In this document: in pieces, positions 50,954 to 58,691 of the stretch | How the letters are laid out: each line of letters begins with the position of its first letter | Position numbering within the stretch: the stretch's first letter is position 1 | From: Thauera propionica | Lineage (GTDB): Bacteria; Pseudomonadota; Gammaproteobacteria; Burkholderiales; Rhodocyclaceae | DNA: 64,000 nt | Direction of reading: 5' to 3' | Assembly (NCBI RefSeq): GCF_002245655.1 | Contig: NZ_NOIH01000003.1 | Span: 744,001-808,000 of the forward strand | Notes under the pieces: model-generated | Told to the model about the DNA's origin: nothing | The model's database searches: none | Seen by the model: the letters and a program-made list of their open reading frames with translations, nothing else | Program-made: the position numbers and the translations under genes

Positions 50954-52555
50954 ATGTTGATCACACGCGAGGTGCTGACCCGCATGGGGGCGACCGGTCC
51001 AAATGCCGATCGCTATGTCGAGGCGCTCAATGCGGAGATGGCCCGGCATGCCATCGACACGGCGCCGCGCGTCGTTCATTTCCTGGCCCAGACGCTGCAC
51101 GAGTCGGGCTGCCTGCGCCTGACCGAGGAGAACCTGAACTACTCGGCAGACGGTCTGCTGAAGGTCTTTCCGCGCTATTTCCCCGCGCGTGCCGAGGCCG
51201 AGGCCTATGCGCGCAAGCCCGAGCGGATCGGCAACCGCGTGTATTGCGGGCGCATGGGCAACGGGCCCGAAGCCAGCGGGGACGGCTTCCGCTACCGCGG
51301 CCGGGGTCTGATCCAGCTTACTGGCAAGGACAACTACCGCGCCCTGGCACGCTGGTGCGGACAGGACGTGGTGGCCGAGCCCGACCGCGTGGGAAGCGAA
51401 CTGGCCGTGCAGTCGGCGGTGTTCTTCTGGGAGCGCAACGCCCTCAACGACCTGGCCGACATCGATGACCTGAAGGCGATCACGCGCCGCATCAACGGCG
51501 GCCTAAACGGCTTTGCCGACCGCCGCGAACTGCTAGAGAAAGGCCGCCACGCCCTGCGCGAGCTGGGGCTGGCTGGCTCGGTCGCCCCGGCCTCGGTGCC
51601 GTTTGCCCCCACCCACCGCGTCGTGCCGCTGCAGCTCAACCTGCGTTCCGCGCCGCGCGTGTCGCCAGCGACCTTGCTGGCCTCGCTTGCCCAGGGAACC
51701 GAGGTCGAGGTGCGCGGGCCGGCGTCGGCCGCGGGCTGGCTGCGGGTCCGCGTGATGCTCGGCGGAACGATGCGCGAGGGCGTGGTGGCCGAGCAGTATC
51801 TTGCCGCACTCGCGCCGCAGCCGCGCGCCCGCGGCCGCGCACGTGCCGCGATGTCGGGCGGGGCGGCGCTTCCCGCCTTGCCGCCCGCGGTGCTGCACGA
51901 CGAGTTCTCGGCCGCCAGCCGGGCTCGCCCGGAGGGGCGCATCCATCCGCTCGCCGAGGCCGACCGGCCCGCGCGCCGTGCGCGGGCATCTGCGGCGCGT
52001 GCTGCCGAACTGCAGGCTATCCTGGACTGGCTCGATGTCACCAACCCGGTGCATCGCCGCTATCGGCCGCTTGATGGCAGAGGTGTGGCCTTGGCCTATG
52101 TTGCCGACTGCGCCGACCTGGCCGGTGTCTATCTGCCGCACGTGTGGTGGACCGATACCGCGCTGCGCCGCCTGACGCTGGGCGATGCGGTCGATCCCGT
52201 CCTTGGCCAGACCGTGCACGAGATCGGCATCAATGCGCTCCACGACTGGCTCGACGACCACGGCCCCGCCTTCGGCTGGGTGCGCGAACTCGATCCAACG
52301 CTGCTGCAGGCGGCGGCAAATGCGGGCGAGGTCTGCGTGATCGTGGCGCGCCATCGTGACATCGACCAGGCCGGACAGGTCTCGCTGGTCGTGCCGGAGC
52401 AGCCGGGCGCCGAGGCCTTGCGCCGCGCGGATGGCGAAGTGCTGCGGCCGCTCGAGTCGATGGCCGGCCGTCGCGGCGTGCGCGCCGCGGTGTCGCGCAA
52501 TGCCTGGTGGACGGGGCGCCGCTTTCAGTCCTTCGCCTTCTGGCGCCACCCGTGA
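50954..52555 (+). CDS. GH19 muramidase/chitinase-like protein with SH3 and extra C-terminal domain
   Basis: A 533-residue protein with no signal peptide. Residues 1-215 are a GH19 domain: HFLAQTLHESGCLRLTEENL with the likely catalytic Glu50 and a second Glu at 58/59, and YRGRGLIQLTGKDNYRALAR. A bacterial SH3 module follows (about 220-285; LQLNLRSAPRVSPATLLASL). The C-terminal about 200 residues include YVADCADLAGVYLPHVWWTD (Cys386) and GQVSLVV (Gln475); I read this as a degenerate or variant cysteine-hydrolase fold, low confidence. The enzyme should cut peptidoglycan; lacking a signal, it would need lysis or a secretion system. ATG 50954 has a GGGAG site. The CHAT gene starts 142 bases later. 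Confidence 0.82.
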   Translation: MLITREVLTRMGATGPNADRYVEALNAEMARHAIDTAPRVVHFLAQTLHESGCLRLTEENLNYSADGLLKVFPRYFPARAEAEAYARKPERIGNRVYCGRMGNGPEASGDGFRYRGRGLIQLTGKDNYRALARWCGQDVVAEPDRVGSELAVQSAVFFWERNALNDLADIDDLKAITRRINGGLNGFADRRELLEKGRHALRELGLAGSVAPASVPFAPTHRVVPLQLNLRSAPRVSPATLLASLAQGTEVEVRGPASAAGWLRVRVMLGGTMREGVVAEQYLAALAPQPRARGRARAAMSGGAALPALPPAVLHDEFSAASRARPEGRIHPLAEADRPARRARASAARAAELQAILDWLDVTNPVHRRYRPLDGRGVALAYVADCADLAGVYLPHVWWTDTALRRLTLGDAVDPVLGQTVHEIGINALHDWLDDHGPAFGWVRELDPTLLQAAANAGEVCVIVARHRDIDQAGQVSLVVPEQPGAEALRRADGEVLRPLESMAGRRGVRAAVSRNAWWTGRRFQSFAFWRHP

Positions 52556-52697
52556 GGGGACTGCGGCGGGGCATGGTCGATTGCTCCGCAGCTCCGTCGC
52601 ACAGTCGGGGTACGACGCTGGCTGAAAATTCCATGGGCATGAGAAGATCGTCGCTCCGACGGGTGGGGACTCCGCGGATCGAGAAAGGGAGAGCATC

Positions 52698-55600
52698 GTG
52701 GCCAACAGTCAATCCACCCGGCGCGGTGCGCCTGCGCTGAAGCTGCCCGTGCAGGCCGAGGCGAGCGCAGTCCCGGCACTGCCCGGCGTGCTGCGCAGTG
52801 CCGGAAGTCGTGCCGACGGCAGCGACGGCATCGCCCTGGTGCCGGGCCTCAAGGTCGTGCGCACGCTCGAGCTTGCCGAAGTCAGCCGCAGCGCCGACGC
52901 TCCCGCACCCGAGCGGCTCGACGCCGGGCCGCGCCTGCTGGCGCTGGAGGCGTCTGACGGCACGACGGTATTCATGCGTGCCGATGCGCTCGCCGAGCAA
53001 CTCGCGCGGACCCGTCCCGAGTTGCTCGACGCTGACGGATGCATCGATTTCGCCGGCTTCCGCGACAGCCGCGACACCGCGCGTGGTGCGCTGGGCTGGG
53101 TGTGGCGCCGCGTGCTGGAACTGAGCCTCGACGAAGACGAGATCAGCATCGAGGCGAAGGACAGGCTGCGGCAACTGCTCGCCGGCAAGGCCGAGGACTG
53201 GGCGGCCGCCTGGGCCTCGCGCAAGGGCGCGCAGGCCCTGATGCAGACCATCGAGGCCCGCCTTGCCGGCGCGCCCGGCCTCTACCGCTGGAAGGGCGGC
53301 GTGCTGCACGACAGCGACCGCTACGCGGCCGACGACGCCCGGCTGCACGAGGCTGCACGCGCGGGCAGCCTGCTGGTGTTCATCCACGGCACCGGTTCCC
53401 ACACCCTCGGTGGTTTCGGCGACCTTCCCGGCAGTGCCGCATGGGGCGTGCTGGAAGCGGCGTTCGGCGAACGGGTGTTCGGCTTCGAGCACCGGACCTT
53501 CTCCGAAAGCCCGATCGACAATGCGCTGACGCTGGCCGAAACCCTGCCCGCCGGCAGCCGCCTGTGCCTGGTCACGCATTCGCGCGGCGGCCTGGTCGGC
53601 GACCTGATGTGCCTCGACCCCGACGATGCGCAACTCGACGAACTGATCGAGGCTTGGCGTCCGGCCCCGACCGCGCGCGTCGGCACGGCGCGCGAGCGGG
53701 CCGCCGTGGCAGCGGCCGAGCGGGCCAAGCTGCGCCGCCTGGCCGGACTGCTGCGCGACAAGGGCCTCAAGGTCGAGCGCTACGTGCGCGTGGCCGCGCC
53801 GGCGCGCGGCACCGCCCTGCTGTCGGACAACCTCGACCTTTTCCTCTCCACCCTGCTGAATCTGGTGCGCCGCTTCGGCGCCTGGAGCAGCGGCGTCGTG
53901 GCCGGCGCAGTGGCTTCGCCGCTCGCCGCCGAAGCGGCGAAGAAGGCTGCCGACCGTGGTCTCGCCTTCCTGTCGCGCGTGGTGCTGGAGATCGCCGACA
54001 AGCGCCTGCAGCCCGAGGTCGTGCCCGGCATCGAGGCCATGCTGCCCGAGTCGCCGATGGGCATGCTGCTCGGCCGTGCCGCGCTGGCGCCCCAGGTCAG
54101 GATGGCGGTGATCGCCGGTGATATCGAAGGCGGCGGGATGTTGCAGCGAATCGGCGTGATGTTCGTCGATTGGGCCTTCTTCGAGCGCGCGCGAAACGAC
54201 CTTGTAGTTGATACGGACTCGATGTACGGCGGCCTGCTCGCCCGCGCGGCGGACGACGCGGACGCACCGCACCGCGCGATCTACGTGCAGGGCCCGGAGG
54301 TCAGCCACTTCCGTTACTTCCGCGACGACGTGAAGAGCGCCAGCGTGCCGCTGCCCGGTGCGCTGGGCAGCTGGCTCACGCACGACGTGCCGGAGCAGGC
54401 CGCGCCCTGGCTGCCGCTCACGCTGCCGGATCTGGAGCCCGCTGGGGGCCGTGCCAGTCGCGGCGAGGCGGAGCCCGCCGACAACACCCTGCCGGTGCTG
54501 GTGCTGCTGCCCGGCATCATGGGCAGTCATCTCGCGGCCGATGGCGACCGGATCTGGCTCGACCCCGTCGATCTCGCGCGCGGCCGGCTGTCGCGCATCG
54601 CGATGGGCGGACGCCGGGCCGTGCGTGCGCAGGGGCTCGTCGGGCTGGCCTACGGCCGGCTGGCCGAGCACCTCGAAGGCAGCCACCGCGTGATCCGCCA
54701 CGATTACGACTGGCGCCAGCCCATCCGTGCGCTGGGCGTCGAGCTTGCCGGCGTGCTGCGCGAGGCGCTGCGCAAGCATCCGGACCAGCCGGTACGCATC
54801 CTCGCCCACAGCATGGGCGGGCTGGTGGTACGCGCCGCCTTTGCGGCCGACAAGACCCTGTGGCGCGACCTCGTCGCCCGGCCGGGCGGCCGGCTGCTGA
54901 TGCTGGGCACGCCCAACCACGGCTCCCACCTGTTCGTGGAAACCCTGCTCGGCCAGTCGGAGACGGTCCGCATGCTGGCGCGGCTGGACATGAAGAACGG
55001 CCTGCAGTCGGTGCTCGACATCGTCGCCGCCTTCCCCGGCGCGGTGCACCTGCTGCCGGCGCCCGGCTTCGAGGACACCGGTGGCGTGGCGGAACGGGAC
55101 TACTTCCGTGCCGAGACCTGGCCCGGACTGGCGTCGATCAACAACGACTTCTGGTTCGGTCGTCGTCTCGCCGGCAAGCCGGCGCAGGGCCTGCTCGACG
55201 ACGCCGTCGACTTCTGGCGCGAGGTGGCCGACACGCAGTGGGTGGCCGAGGCGCCCGACCGGATCACCTACGTCTTCGGCCAGGCGGACAACACGCCTTG
55301 CGGCATCCTCGTTCACACCGAGGACGGCAAGCCCAGGAACATCGTGATGCGCGGCACGCCGTTTGGCGACGGCTCGGTCACCTGGCAGTCCGGCCGTCTG
55401 CCCGGCCTGCCCGACGAGCGCTACTGGATGATGCCGGTGGACCACATGGGCCTGACCAGCACGCCGAAGTTCTTCGCCGAGATCGACTCCCTGCTGGCCA
55501 ATGGCACGCCGATTCGCCTCGGCCGCCTGCCGGTGAGCCGTGGCGAGGAACTCGACGCACCGCTGCTGAGCTATCGCGCCGGGCCGCCGCCTGCCTACCC

Positions 55601-58600
55601 GACCGACGCCGAGATCGTCAGCCGTGTGCTGGGCGGGCACCTGCAGCCCTTGCCGCGGCGCAAGCGGGCCACGCTGGCGGTGTCGGTGCGGGCGATGGAC
55701 CTGCGCTTCGTGCAGGTGCCGATCCTGTGCGGCCACTATGCGGGCGATCCCATCGCCGGCGCCGAGGGCGTGATCGACCGCTGGCTGGTGGGCGGCGCGC
55801 TGAGCCACCGCCAGCGCCTGGGCGTCCATGCCGCCGAGCTCGGCAGCGCCGCGGTCGTGCTGATGCCGCGCAGCCGCGAGGAGCGCCTGCGCGGTACAGG
55901 GCGCGGCGCGGTGGTCGTCGGCCTGGGCGAGATGGGGCGACTGGGCGCCGAAGGCGTCACCGAGGCGGTGCGCGCCGGGGCGCTGCGCTACCTGCTGCAT
56001 GCCTGCGACCGTAGCATCGAGGAGCACTGCATCCAGGGTGCGGGGGGCGAGGGGACGCTGCCGCTGCGTCTGGCCAGCCTGCTGATCGGCACCAACTCCG
56101 CGGCCCAGCTCGAAGTCGGCGACGCGGTGAAGGCGATCGTGCGCGGCGTGCTGCTCGCCAACCGCGATTTCGCCCAGGGCGCGGGCGGGCGCAAGGCACC
56201 GTCCGGGCGCATCGTCGAGCTGGAACTGGTCGAGCTCTATCGCGATGCGGCGATTTCCGCGGCCGATGCCGTCAGCACGCTGGGGCAGGCGCTGGCGGGC
56301 GAGCTCGCGCAACTGGGTGTCGAACTCGAGGCCGCCACCGAACTTCGCCACGGCGAAGGCGTGCGCCAGCGCCTGACGGTGACGCCCTTCTCCGACTATT
56401 GGCCGCGCCTGGCGGTGGGCGATGCCGACCGCGACGACAGCGACTGCCCGGCCGACGGCTGGACGCCCCGCCTGCGCAACCCGCTGCCACCGGATGTTCT
56501 GCGCCGCTGGCTGAGCCTGTACGGCTGCGGTGCCGAGGCGATCGACGCCGCTGCGCTGCAGCCGGGGCTCGAGTCGCCGCCGGTGGTACGCCATGCCGAG
56601 CGCCTGCGTTTCACCTACATGGGCGAGAAGGCGCGTGCCGAGGCGGTGGTGCAGCAGCGTCAGCCGGGCCTGGTCGAGAAGCTCGCCACCGAGGCGCTCA
56701 CCGGCCCTGCCGCCACACGCCATGCGCGGGGCGAACAGGCGCTGGGTCATCTGCTGTTCCAGCTGCTGGTGCCGGTGGAGTTCAAGGCCGCCGCGCGCAA
56801 GGCCAACAACCTGATCCTGGTGGTGGACGAGCGCACGGCCAACCTGCCGTGGGAGCTGCTGGAAGCCGATGGCGAACCCCTGGTGCGCACGACCCGCATG
56901 GTGCGCCAGTTCATGACCACGCGCTTCCGCCGGGAGATCGTGCGCACCGATGCGATCAGCGCGTGCGTGATCGCCAACCCCAGCACCGAGGGCTATCACG
57001 CGCAGTTCGGCGGTCCCGGCTGGAAGCCGCGCCTCGATGCCGAGGGCAAGCCGCGTCCCGATCGCCTGCCCAGCCTGGAGGGCGCTGCGCGCGAAGGCGA
57101 TGCCGTGGTCCGCATCCTCGAGGCGGCGGGCTACACGGTCAGCCATGCGCCACCGGATTCGCGCGCGCCCGAGGTGTTCGCCCGCCTCTTCGCCCGCCCC
57201 TGCCGCATCCTCGCCATCGCCGCGCACGGCATCTACGCCAGGCGCGGCGCCGACGGGCGTTATCGCAGCGGCGTCGTGCTGTCCGACGGACTGCTGCTGT
57301 CTGCCGCCGAGATCGGCCTGATGGAGACGGTGCCCGACCTGGTGTTCCTGAGTTGCTGCCACCTCGGCCGGATCGGCGAGGGCGAATCCGGCCAGCGCCT
57401 GGCGGCCAGTCTCGCGCGCGAGCTGATCGACATGGGCGTGCGCTGCGTGGTCGCGGCCGGCTGGGAGGTCCGCGACGATGCCGGGCTCACCTTCGCCGAG
57501 ACCTTCTTCACCCACATGGCGGTTCGCGGCGCACGCTTCGCGGATGCGGTCTTCGCCGCCCGCCGTGCGGCGCTCGATACCTATCCCGACTGCAATACCT
57601 GGGGCGCCTACCAGGCCTACGGCGATCCGGCCTTCCAGCTCCGGCTGGGCGAGCCGGCGAGCCGCGACGACACGCCGCTGCGGGCACCCGAGCAATTGCT
57701 TGACTGGCTGGAGCAACTGCGGCTCGACACCCGCCTGCCGGCGGCTGTCCGCGGCGAGCGTGATTTCGCCGCCCTGCAGAAGCGCGTGCGACGCCGCCTG
57801 GGCCGGCTGCCGCCGCACTGGGCGGAACGCACCGATGTGCTGCAGGCGCAGGGGCGCCTTTATGCCGAGTACGGCGGTGCGGGCTTCGCGGCGGCACGCG
57901 CCGCGCTGCTGCGGGCAATTGCCGAGGATTCGTCGCAGGGGCTGGTGCCGATCAGCGCCATCGAGCAGCTCGTCAACATGGAGGCGCGCGAAGCCGAACG
58001 CCTGAGCGCGCCCGGCGACGGACAGGACCTGGAGGCCGCGTCGACGCTGATCGACGATGCGCTGGCGCGGGCCGGCGCGCTGTCCGCCCTGTCCGGCGAG
58101 CATCCGGCCACGGCTGCACGTGGCGCGGAGACCCCACCCGTCCCCAATGCCGAACGCCAGGGCATCTTCGGCAGCGCCTGGAAGCGCAAGGCCATGGTCC
58201 TGCTGCGCGGACCCGAACCCGAGCTGCAGGCCGTGCGTGAAGCCCTGTCCCGCGCGCGCGACGCCTACGCCGCCGGCGAGGGCGATGCGCGCGCCGTGGA
58301 CTGGAACCCGCAGGCGCGCATCAACCGCCTGCAGCTCGATGCCGTCCTGGGGGATGCCAGCACGGGCGGAGCCGATGCGCTCGCGTGCGTGGAGCGGGCC
58401 CGACGACGCTTCGAACGCAGCTTCGTGTTCTGGGATGCCGCGATGGTGGCCGATGCGACCGTGGCCGCCTGGCTTGCGGGCGGCCGCCTGCCCGAGGGGC
58501 GCAGCGCAGAAGCCGTGCTGGGCGACCTTTACCGCGATGCCCTGGCGACGGTCGCCGCGTCGGCGCGCGAGCTCGATTCGGTTCGTGCGCAACTGGCGAT

Positions 58601-58691
58601 GCTGGCCGCCTTCCTGCGTCTGCGCGCAAAGCGGGGCGACACGGGCAAGGCGGAGGTGCTGGACGCGGTCGCGCTGTCCTTGCCCGACTGA
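52698..58691 (+). CDS. Giant CHAT-domain protein with two serine-hydrolase domains (1,997 residues)
   Basis: One uninterrupted frame from GTG 52698 (AGAAAGGGA upstream). Hydrolase I (about 215-330) has oxyanion-type HGTGSH (His230) and nucleophile Ser295 in THSRGG. Hydrolase II (about 595-930) is lipase-like: LLPGIMGSH, Ser705 in HSMGG, Asp891 in FGDGSV, His916 in DHMGL. A middle region (about 975-1130; VPILCGHYAGDPIAGAE, VVVGLGEMG) vaguely resembles an M17-peptidase N-terminal/macro-like fold. The CHAT caspase-like domain (about 1350-1660) shows NLPWELLE (1382-1387), His1510 (AAHGIY) and Cys1554 (LSCCHLG). The last about 330 residues are Ala/Arg-rich helices, TPR-like. No signal or membrane segment, so cytosolic. 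A protease-activated lipase/esterase is plausible; nothing shows the trigger. Confidence 0.85.
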   Translation: MANSQSTRRGAPALKLPVQAEASAVPALPGVLRSAGSRADGSDGIALVPGLKVVRTLELAEVSRSADAPAPERLDAGPRLLALEASDGTTVFMRADALAEQLARTRPELLDADGCIDFAGFRDSRDTARGALGWVWRRVLELSLDEDEISIEAKDRLRQLLAGKAEDWAAAWASRKGAQALMQTIEARLAGAPGLYRWKGGVLHDSDRYAADDARLHEAARAGSLLVFIHGTGSHTLGGFGDLPGSAAWGVLEAAFGERVFGFEHRTFSESPIDNALTLAETLPAGSRLCLVTHSRGGLVGDLMCLDPDDAQLDELIEAWRPAPTARVGTARERAAVAAAERAKLRRLAGLLRDKGLKVERYVRVAAPARGTALLSDNLDLFLSTLLNLVRRFGAWSSGVVAGAVASPLAAEAAKKAADRGLAFLSRVVLEIADKRLQPEVVPGIEAMLPESPMGMLLGRAALAPQVRMAVIAGDIEGGGMLQRIGVMFVDWAFFERARNDLVVDTDSMYGGLLARAADDADAPHRAIYVQGPEVSHFRYFRDDVKSASVPLPGALGSWLTHDVPEQAAPWLPLTLPDLEPAGGRASRGEAEPADNTLPVLVLLPGIMGSHLAADGDRIWLDPVDLARGRLSRIAMGGRRAVRAQGLVGLAYGRLAEHLEGSHRVIRHDYDWRQPIRALGVELAGVLREALRKHPDQPVRILAHSMGGLVVRAAFAADKTLWRDLVARPGGRLLMLGTPNHGSHLFVETLLGQSETVRMLARLDMKNGLQSVLDIVAAFPGAVHLLPAPGFEDTGGVAERDYFRAETWPGLASINNDFWFGRRLAGKPAQGLLDDAVDFWREVADTQWVAEAPDRITYVFGQADNTPCGILVHTEDGKPRNIVMRGTPFGDGSVTWQSGRLPGLPDERYWMMPVDHMGLTSTPKFFAEIDSLLANGTPIRLGRLPVSRGEELDAPLLSYRAGPPPAYPTDAEIVSRVLGGHLQPLPRRKRATLAVSVRAMDLRFVQVPILCGHYAGDPIAGAEGVIDRWLVGGALSHRQRLGVHAAELGSAAVVLMPRSREERLRGTGRGAVVVGLGEMGRLGAEGVTEAVRAGALRYLLHACDRSIEEHCIQGAGGEGTLPLRLASLLIGTNSAAQLEVGDAVKAIVRGVLLANRDFAQGAGGRKAPSGRIVELELVELYRDAAISAADAVSTLGQALAGELAQLGVELEAATELRHGEGVRQRLTVTPFSDYWPRLAVGDADRDDSDCPADGWTPRLRNPLPPDVLRRWLSLYGCGAEAIDAAALQPGLESPPVVRHAERLRFTYMGEKARAEAVVQQRQPGLVEKLATEALTGPAATRHARGEQALGHLLFQLLVPVEFKAAARKANNLILVVDERTANLPWELLEADGEPLVRTTRMVRQFMTTRFRREIVRTDAISACVIANPSTEGYHAQFGGPGWKPRLDAEGKPRPDRLPSLEGAAREGDAVVRILEAAGYTVSHAPPDSRAPEVFARLFARPCRILAIAAHGIYARRGADGRYRSGVVLSDGLLLSAAEIGLMETVPDLVFLSCCHLGRIGEGESGQRLAASLARELIDMGVRCVVAAGWEVRDDAGLTFAETFFTHMAVRGARFADAVFAARRAALDTYPDCNTWGAYQAYGDPAFQLRLGEPASRDDTPLRAPEQLLDWLEQLRLDTRLPAAVRGERDFAALQKRVRRRLGRLPPHWAERTDVLQAQGRLYAEYGGAGFAAARAALLRAIAEDSSQGLVPISAIEQLVNMEAREAERLSAPGDGQDLEAASTLIDDALARAGALSALSGEHPATAARGAETPPVPNAERQGIFGSAWKRKAMVLLRGPEPELQAVREALSRARDAYAAGEGDARAVDWNPQARINRLQLDAVLGDASTGGADALACVERARRRFERSFVFWDAAMVADATVAAWLAGGRLPEGRSAEAVLGDLYRDALATVAASARELDSVRAQLAMLAAFLRLRAKRGDTGKAEVLDAVALSLPD

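Follow-up and report, generated by a model that had tools for sequence, protein, structure and literature searches.

In a 64,000-nucleotide stretch of the Thauera propionica genome (contig NZ_NOIH01000003.1, positions 744,001 to 808,000 of the forward strand; hereafter, the window), an open reading frame (ORF) with a GTG start at positions 52698-58691 of the plus strand encodes a protein of 1,997 amino acids (aa) in which two predicted lipase-type serine hydrolases, a macro-like domain, a CHAT cysteine protease and a TPR-S tail are joined in one chain. The evidence leans, with modest confidence, towards this protein being an executioner that acts in a pathway of regulated cell death against infection and would be switched on by a partner caspase or by a sensor protein. 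It is likely a self-destruct machine acting upon infection, because its relatives repeatedly have another caspase gene next to them or, in the case of some plasmids, genes of immune type. The basis for this proposal comprises the domain chain, near-invariant catalytic residues, purifying selection, the recurrent linkage to a C14 caspase gene, and single plasmid copies located beside restriction-modification (R-M) or nSTAND1 genes. The original prediction, made from the DNA letters alone, had described one 1,997-residue protein with two serine hydrolases and a CHAT protease; the ORF is real and all the catalytic residues named in it are present.

Domain architecture of the main protein

The gene and the parts of its product are located in the window as follows:

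52698..58691, plus strand: gene of the double-hydrolase / macro-like / CHAT / TPR-S protein (ORF call, Pfam, homologues, purifying selection)
52698..53354, plus strand: N-terminal region, residues 1-219, partly of low confidence (AlphaFold2 model; Pfam without match)
53355..54332, plus strand: hydrolase I, residues 220-545, DUF7379, alpha/beta hydrolase (Pfam, conservation)
53580-53582, 54198-54200 and 54306-54308, plus strand: predicted triad of hydrolase I, Ser295, Asp501 and His537, respectively
54378..54491, plus strand: inter-hydrolase linker, residues 561-598 (confidence of the model, alignment columns)
54459-54461, plus strand: linker Arg588, candidate cleavage site (alignment column)
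54486..55532, plus strand: hydrolase II, residues 597-945, with the lysosomal phospholipase A2 (LPLA2) / LCAT fold
54810-54812, 55368-55370 and 55443-55445, plus strand: Ser705, Asp891 and His916 of hydrolase II, respectively
55665..56318, plus strand: macro-like domain spanning residues 990-1207, akin to the N-terminal domain of M17 leucyl aminopeptidase
56382..57647, plus strand: CHAT / separase-type cysteine protease, residues 1229-1650
57225-57227 and 57357-57359, plus strand: CHAT catalytic residues His1510 and Cys1554, respectively
57648..58688, plus strand: TPR tail, residues 1651-1997, with Pfam TPR-S at residues 1731-1877

Pfam recognizes CHAT at residues 1348-1643 (E 9.9e-27), DUF7379 in three stretches, the best of them at residues 226-306, and TPR-S (PF20308) at residues 1731-1877 (E 3.4e-6), the latter passing its cut-off with 28.0 bits against 27.6. 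CHAT (PF12770) was matched in 44/44 members of the family and TPR-S in 39/44 at E<=0.01, while DUF7379 was found in all 39 members scanned for it and Abhydrolase_6 in 11 of these 39. In fold, the nearest matches of the protease are separase and Craspase. Hydrolase II presents the LPLA2/LCAT fold together with a Ser-Asp-His triad and is, by fold and triad, a predicted phospholipase-type enzyme. LCAT/PGAP1-type matches around residues 665-780 lie below the Pfam cut-offs, the window copy reaching 17.5 bits for LCAT (PF02450) under a cut-off of 21, which is passed by three plasmid homologues (27.1, 31.1 and 29.8 bits). The fold of hydrolase I is assigned from Pfam, from the triad and from secondary-structure prediction, because its profile matched PDB sequences weakly (the best hit, at E 0.064, being a reductase, with lipases next) and the fold comparison of the hydrolases was occupied by matches to hydrolase II. 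A search of PDB sequences with the single main protein gave no match, so that profiles were needed, and NCBIfam returned no significant family for the main protein and nothing useful for the macro-like region.

The chain contains no long hydrophobic segments. In the AlphaFold2 model, the block-mean predicted local distance difference test (pLDDT) is 34-83 for residues 1-180 and higher beyond, and the Pfam scan revealed no known domain in residues 1-219. The N-terminal 200 residues and the tail at 1690-1997 had been put forward earlier as candidate sensors, and the segment 975-1130 as a further part to be checked: the tail proved to contain TPR-S and the segment 975-1130 to be macro-like, whereas the N-terminal part, here the first 219 residues, is left without assignment. 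The TPR-S tail and the macro-like domain are plausible sensor or assembly parts. On the opposite strand, an antisense ORF of 2,120 aa (52230-58592, minus strand) overlaps nearly the whole gene and is probably a by-product of high G+C.

Homologues, active sites and selection

The homologue search covered 5.8 billion proteins, and 737 relatives at E<=1e-3 were found among the 7,984 candidates scored. DUF7379 and CHAT were both recognized by eye in 119 of the 120 listed relatives, the exception being a partial entry (P0102, 1,442 aa) that was left out of the alignment since it fell below the 1,500-aa filter. The window protein was therefore aligned with the remaining 119 database proteins and with 43 proteins of more than 1,500 aa from the loci, and the merging of eight near-identical pairs (at least 98% identity, from two sources) left 154 distinct homologues. 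The domain order is conserved among them, a point that the original prediction had proposed to check.

The dyad of the CHAT protease is invariant, with both His1510 and Cys1554 kept in 154/154 homologues. In hydrolase I, for which Ser295 had been singled out beforehand, this residue is kept in 153/154 and forms a full triad with Asp501 and His537 (154/154 each), neither of which had been listed. The full lipase triad announced for hydrolase II is indeed present in the window protein, and Asp891 and His916 are kept in 154/154 and 153/154 homologues, respectively, but Ser705 is the least constrained of the active sites, being retained in 145/154 and replaced by Gly in nine (L076, P0070, P0082, P0085, P0093, P0094, P0095, P0099 and P0106). 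Eight of these nine homologues retain Ser295, and the Gly-rich motif around position 705 stays.

The gene is under purifying selection. The ratio of nonsynonymous to synonymous substitution rates (dN/dS) is 0.14 against a 95%-identical copy and 0.21 against a 78% copy, with the lowest values in CHAT (0.057 and 0.115) and a value of 0.060 in hydrolase I against the 95%-identical copy. Moreover, the linker between the two hydrolases shows low pLDDT at residues 577-593, and an arginine is aligned at position 588 in 149 of the 154 distinct homologues. Arg588 is a candidate cleavage site and is taken as a lead only, because the alignment may favour any arginine in the linker.

In the genus Thauera, 22 of 25 genomes carry a copy, which is only partial in some drafts. 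Two types can be told apart: a close type, 66-95% identical to the window copy and found in six genomes including the window's, and a distant type of about 33-41% identity. In a draw of genomes from the order, 29/399 match, of which 22 (the window genome included) span the hydrolases and CHAT and seven match in one domain only, and in a draw from the phylum 25/397 match, six of them at full length. Zoogloea, Azoarcus, Aromatoleum and Pseudomonas are among the sources of named relatives. Matches at E<=1e-20 were obtained in nine plasmid records, of which none covers more than 80% of the query and two cover less than 20%, and the viral contigs yielded two weak matches, to hydrolase II alone. As a separate observation, a split form was seen in G346 (L092:7908-10919), where a 303-aa protein with a hydrolase-type Ser motif, recognized by eye and without a Pfam match, adjoins a 696-aa CHAT protein of the main family.

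A C14 caspase gene as recurrent partner

The neighbourhood sample consisted of 49 loci, a few of them with partial or split copies and two genomes being represented twice, and the gene upstream of the main gene was visible in 44. In 14/44, this upstream gene encodes a C14 caspase in the same orientation, separated from the main gene by 26-162 bp. The corresponding ORFs were called at 262-422 aa, bar one whose start was set too far upstream, and the five of the 14 that were checked with Pfam were all C14 (E 2e-28, 1.2e-31, 3.7e-34, 4.9e-26 and 6e-25). Of these 14 loci, five belong to distant-type Thauera and seven to the order draw, while Pseudomonas and Azoarcus contribute one each. In one more genome the caspase is located directly downstream, and in another it is one called ORF away. 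The order draw was not selected for linkage, and C14 is found directly upstream in 7 of its 21 other genomes, from five families, the upstream gene not being visible in two of the 21. The rough chance of such linkage in 7/22 is 4e-18, assuming 3,900 genes per genome and leaving relatedness uncorrected. Among nine neighbour proteins submitted to PADLOC, just the C14 gene ('caspase') and a TIR protein were named.

In the close clade, the caspase is found away from the main gene. Six close-type genomes, including the window's, carry the same metacaspase subtype (at least 80% identical to that of the window genome) unlinked, and in the window genome (G000) it is located on contig C23 at 543050-543841, about 250 kb from the main gene. 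Two of three metacaspase loci (G000 and G012, but not G003) have a flanking gene in common with the linked operon of the distant clade, 80-83% identical and, in G000, about 7.6 kb from the metacaspase. Therefore, the caspase appears to have stayed in the close clade where the other type of the main gene was lost.

Fusions between a GDSL-type lipase/acylhydrolase and C14, about 630-640 aa long, also occur in the genus (L100:4876-6795 in G005 and L101:5938-7821 in G009), the first confirmed with Pfam and the second read as sequence. C14 matches of the similarity of these fusions (40-44%) are present in 8/25 genus genomes.

The endolysin-like gene upstream

The gene preceding the main gene in the window is the following:

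50954..52555, plus strand: upstream gene, 533 aa, phage-endolysin-like GH19 with a bacterial SH3-like part and a C-terminal domain (profile against PDB, Pfam)

Its GH19 domain is closest to phage-type lytic enzymes (profile against PDB 9eoi, E 5.4e-51), and Pfam gives GH19 at E 2.3e-7 and SH3_3 below cut-off. The C-terminal 200 residues or so form a conserved domain with a Cys/His pair kept in several relatives; a profile search of this domain gave no fold, its papain-like (Cys...His) look being judged by eye alone. The GH19 gene is the immediate upstream neighbour of the main gene in the close Thauera clade and at one Pseudomonas locus, and at a second Pseudomonas locus it is placed one gene further up, before the metacaspase. 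In the genus it is found in 15/25 genomes, in two of these as two pieces on separate contigs.

At two chromosomal sites the main gene is either present or absent behind GH19. At the redoxin site it follows GH19 in L021-L024 and is absent in L129 and L130 (CNNM being identified in L129 only). At the site of a tripartite tricarboxylate transporter (Tct), L025 has it and L131, L132, L133, L137 and L135 lack it, only TctA and TctB being matched in the last. The main gene is, therefore, an accessory unit. The idea of GH19 as an obligate partner is weakened by the same pattern, as GH19 is a resident gene of the genus behind which the main gene comes and goes. The endolysin-like protein is a possible lysis partner, not an obligate one.

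Other neighbourhoods

Four of the nine plasmid records were examined for their neighbourhoods. On an Azotobacter plasmid, type I R-M genes, Fic, PD-(D/E)XK and a recombinase adjoin the main gene on the other strand, and on an Ensifer plasmid an nSTAND1-propeller (NTPase) gene and a gene for a periplasmic-binding protein lie upstream (ORFs called in this analysis). In two Paracoccus plasmids, the proteins encoded upstream are related to each other (48% identity) and have 6-7 hydrophobic segments, with an SBP_bac_3 match in one of them, and this membrane-protein gene either runs into the main gene or stops 37 bp short of it.

Among the chromosomal relatives, L084 has two TIR-domain proteins as neighbours, one of them 1,520 aa long, L093 has another TIR protein, L019 has a DUF4062-TPR protein, and a 995-aa caspase protein is encoded near L075 on the other strand. 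In Azoarcus sp. L1K30, a second CHAT protein of 1,005 aa (L016:7940-10954) directly precedes the metacaspase and the main gene, resulting in three caspase-fold proteins in a row. In three distant-type loci of the genus (L033, L034 and L037), a protein of 219-249 aa without a Pfam match is encoded directly upstream, which looks SLOG-like by eye; likewise, the names TPR-S 'sensor', DRHyd and SLOG for some neighbours are tentative assignments. Many other loci have metabolic or unremarkable neighbours.

Proposed mode of action and alternative explanations

If the main protein acts as an executioner, the macro-like and TPR-S parts together with the variable neighbour proteins would read the signal, and the partner caspase and/or the CHAT protease would cut the chain, perhaps at the low-confidence linker near Arg588, releasing hydrolases that would attack membrane phospholipids. 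In the window clade, damage to the inner membrane would next give the GH19 protein access to the cell wall, where it would bring lysis to completion. A more elaborate scheme, which is possible and held only tentatively, is a two-tier caspase cascade ending in lipid attack, where an initiator metacaspase would activate a separase-like executioner with two phospholipases and a macro-like nucleotide sensor, and where, in one clade, a domesticated phage endolysin would finish lysis. If this were true, the upstream switches would be interchangeable (metacaspase, NLR-like nSTAND1, TIR or membrane receptor).

Several observations weigh against an executioner of cell death. The scanned flanks in the window contain cobalamin genes, a pyruvyl transferase, a redoxin and CNNM/FapA genes, with no defence genes, and the remaining neighbours of both Paracoccus plasmid copies are metabolic. 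The presence in 22/25 Thauera genomes is steadier than that of a typical patchy defence gene, PADLOC found no significant model for the main protein (BovA at E 0.018), and no copy was found among 50,697 phage records and, thus, no viral counter-context. As for the partners, no C14 gene is directly upstream in 30/44 loci, which also speaks against a strict partnership, and no metacaspase match was found in five gene-carrying genus genomes (G002, G007, G014, G018 and G020). The GH19 gene occurs without the main gene beside it in nine genus genomes, one of which lacks the main gene, and the Cys/His pair of its C-terminal domain is lost in the window and L022 copies. Furthermore, the change of Ser to Gly in nine homologues suggests that the nucleophile site of hydrolase II can be dispensed with.

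These points bear on the original prediction, according to which CHAT cleavage could release or activate the hydrolases in a self-contained sense-and-kill device. Its overall interpretation is partly supported. Several relatives are found in conflict-type contexts, in line with it, while the window copy sits among housekeeping genes; it had also named housekeeping contexts with a non-conserved Cys1554 or Ser705 as evidence to the contrary, and Cys1554 is fully conserved, although the window copy is flanked by cobalamin and redoxin genes. The term self-contained does not hold, given the recurrent partner genes (metacaspase and endolysin-like GH19) and the single loci with TIR, nSTAND1 or membrane-protein neighbours.

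The main rival explanation, which we regard as rather unlikely, is a housekeeping or stress-regulatory protease-lipase that would remodel membrane lipids or process an envelope regulator with no killing involved. CHAT-like folds are regulatory in other settings too, as one is carried by the transmembrane anti-sigma factor DdvA. However, a housekeeping function is at odds with the variable presence of the main gene, which at two chromosomal sites follows the same GH19 gene in some genomes and not in others, with a full-length form in just 22/399 order genomes, and with the R-M, nSTAND1, TIR and caspase neighbours of several relatives. More doubtful still is a defence role in which the protease is the killer, CHAT cleaving host or phage proteins and the hydrolases serving as regulators that hydrolyse or sense, e.g., a lipid or acyl signal. 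The CHAT residues are the most constrained (154/154; dN/dS 0.06-0.12) and the Ser of hydrolase II is lost in 9/154, as this explanation would have it, but the triad of hydrolase I is practically invariant, and hydrolase II keeps its Ser in 145/154 along with a phospholipase fold. A toxin pair delivered by a type VI secretion system against rival bacteria, consisting of a lipase effector and the GH19 wall hydrolase, is highly improbable, since the chain also has protease and TPR parts and the sheath gene VipB is absent in 7 of 12 tested carriers and present in the other five; for the window genome, which is rated 100% complete and lacks the VipB family, such delivery was rejected.

Comparison with known systems

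The proposed cell-death executioner combines known parts, namely CHAT/caspase immunity, lipase effectors and caspase-hydrolase pairing. The bacterial caspase-type immune systems known so far act by releasing or activating an effector that is separate, for example a gasdermin or a nuclease. In the open-licence literature searched, no description of a two-hydrolase/macro-like/CHAT/TPR-S chain with a recurrent caspase partner was recognized, and the name DUF7379 occurs in no paper. Craspase, the TPR-CHAT protease (Csx29) of type III-E CRISPR, has its TPR before CHAT, whereas the TPR follows CHAT in the main protein, which adds two fused hydrolases and a macro-like domain. No Cas7-11-type gene appeared in the Pfam scan of the window neighbours, no targeted or genome-wide search having been made. 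Hydrolase II resembles lysosomal phospholipase A2 / LCAT and the bacterial lipases Tle4 and PlaB in its fold and conserved Ser/Asp/His; unlike the LPLA2/LCAT lipases, it is embedded in a giant chain and, in the window copy, falls under the Pfam LCAT cut-off.

In the VMAP (MoxR-vWA) ternary conflict systems, caspase domains always occur with a neighbouring alpha/beta-hydrolase gene (Kaur 2020, PMC7159879). The main protein shares with them the coupling of a caspase-type protease with an alpha/beta hydrolase (PMC7159879), although the components there are separate neighbouring genes accompanied by MoxR/vWA, and here two hydrolases and CHAT form one chain. MoxR/vWA genes were absent from the Pfam scan of the window neighbours, again with no targeted or genome-wide search. 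In canu caspase-nuclease defence, the caspase activates an MBL-fold pro-nuclease by proteolysis (PMC12799240). There, too, a caspase gene adjoins a putative effector gene that cleavage would activate (PMC12799240), but the effector in canu is an MBL-fold pro-nuclease, whereas here it would be of lipase type with its own protease; no MBL-fold pro-nuclease turned up among the neighbours scanned, for which no targeted search was made. For CARD-NLR systems, phospholipases are named as alternative effectors (PMC13236601), and the general plan of CARD-NLR/gasdermin-type systems, a protease-gated effector that attacks membranes, is similar (PMC13236601). No CARD or gasdermin turned up in the families scanned, and, in contrast to those systems, a single protein holds both the protease and the putative membrane enzyme.

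With a protease and two lipase-type enzymes on one chain, an auto-processing executioner is directly testable, and the linked metacaspase would be an example, rare in bacteria, of a caspase-fold protease whose target is a second protease of that fold. Since the gene is common in Thauera and has relatives in other genera, it may matter for the survival of bacteria in activated sludge and soil when phages attack. If the two-tier cascade were true, initiator and executioner caspases would have a parallel in bacteria, one in which phospholipases take the place of a gasdermin.

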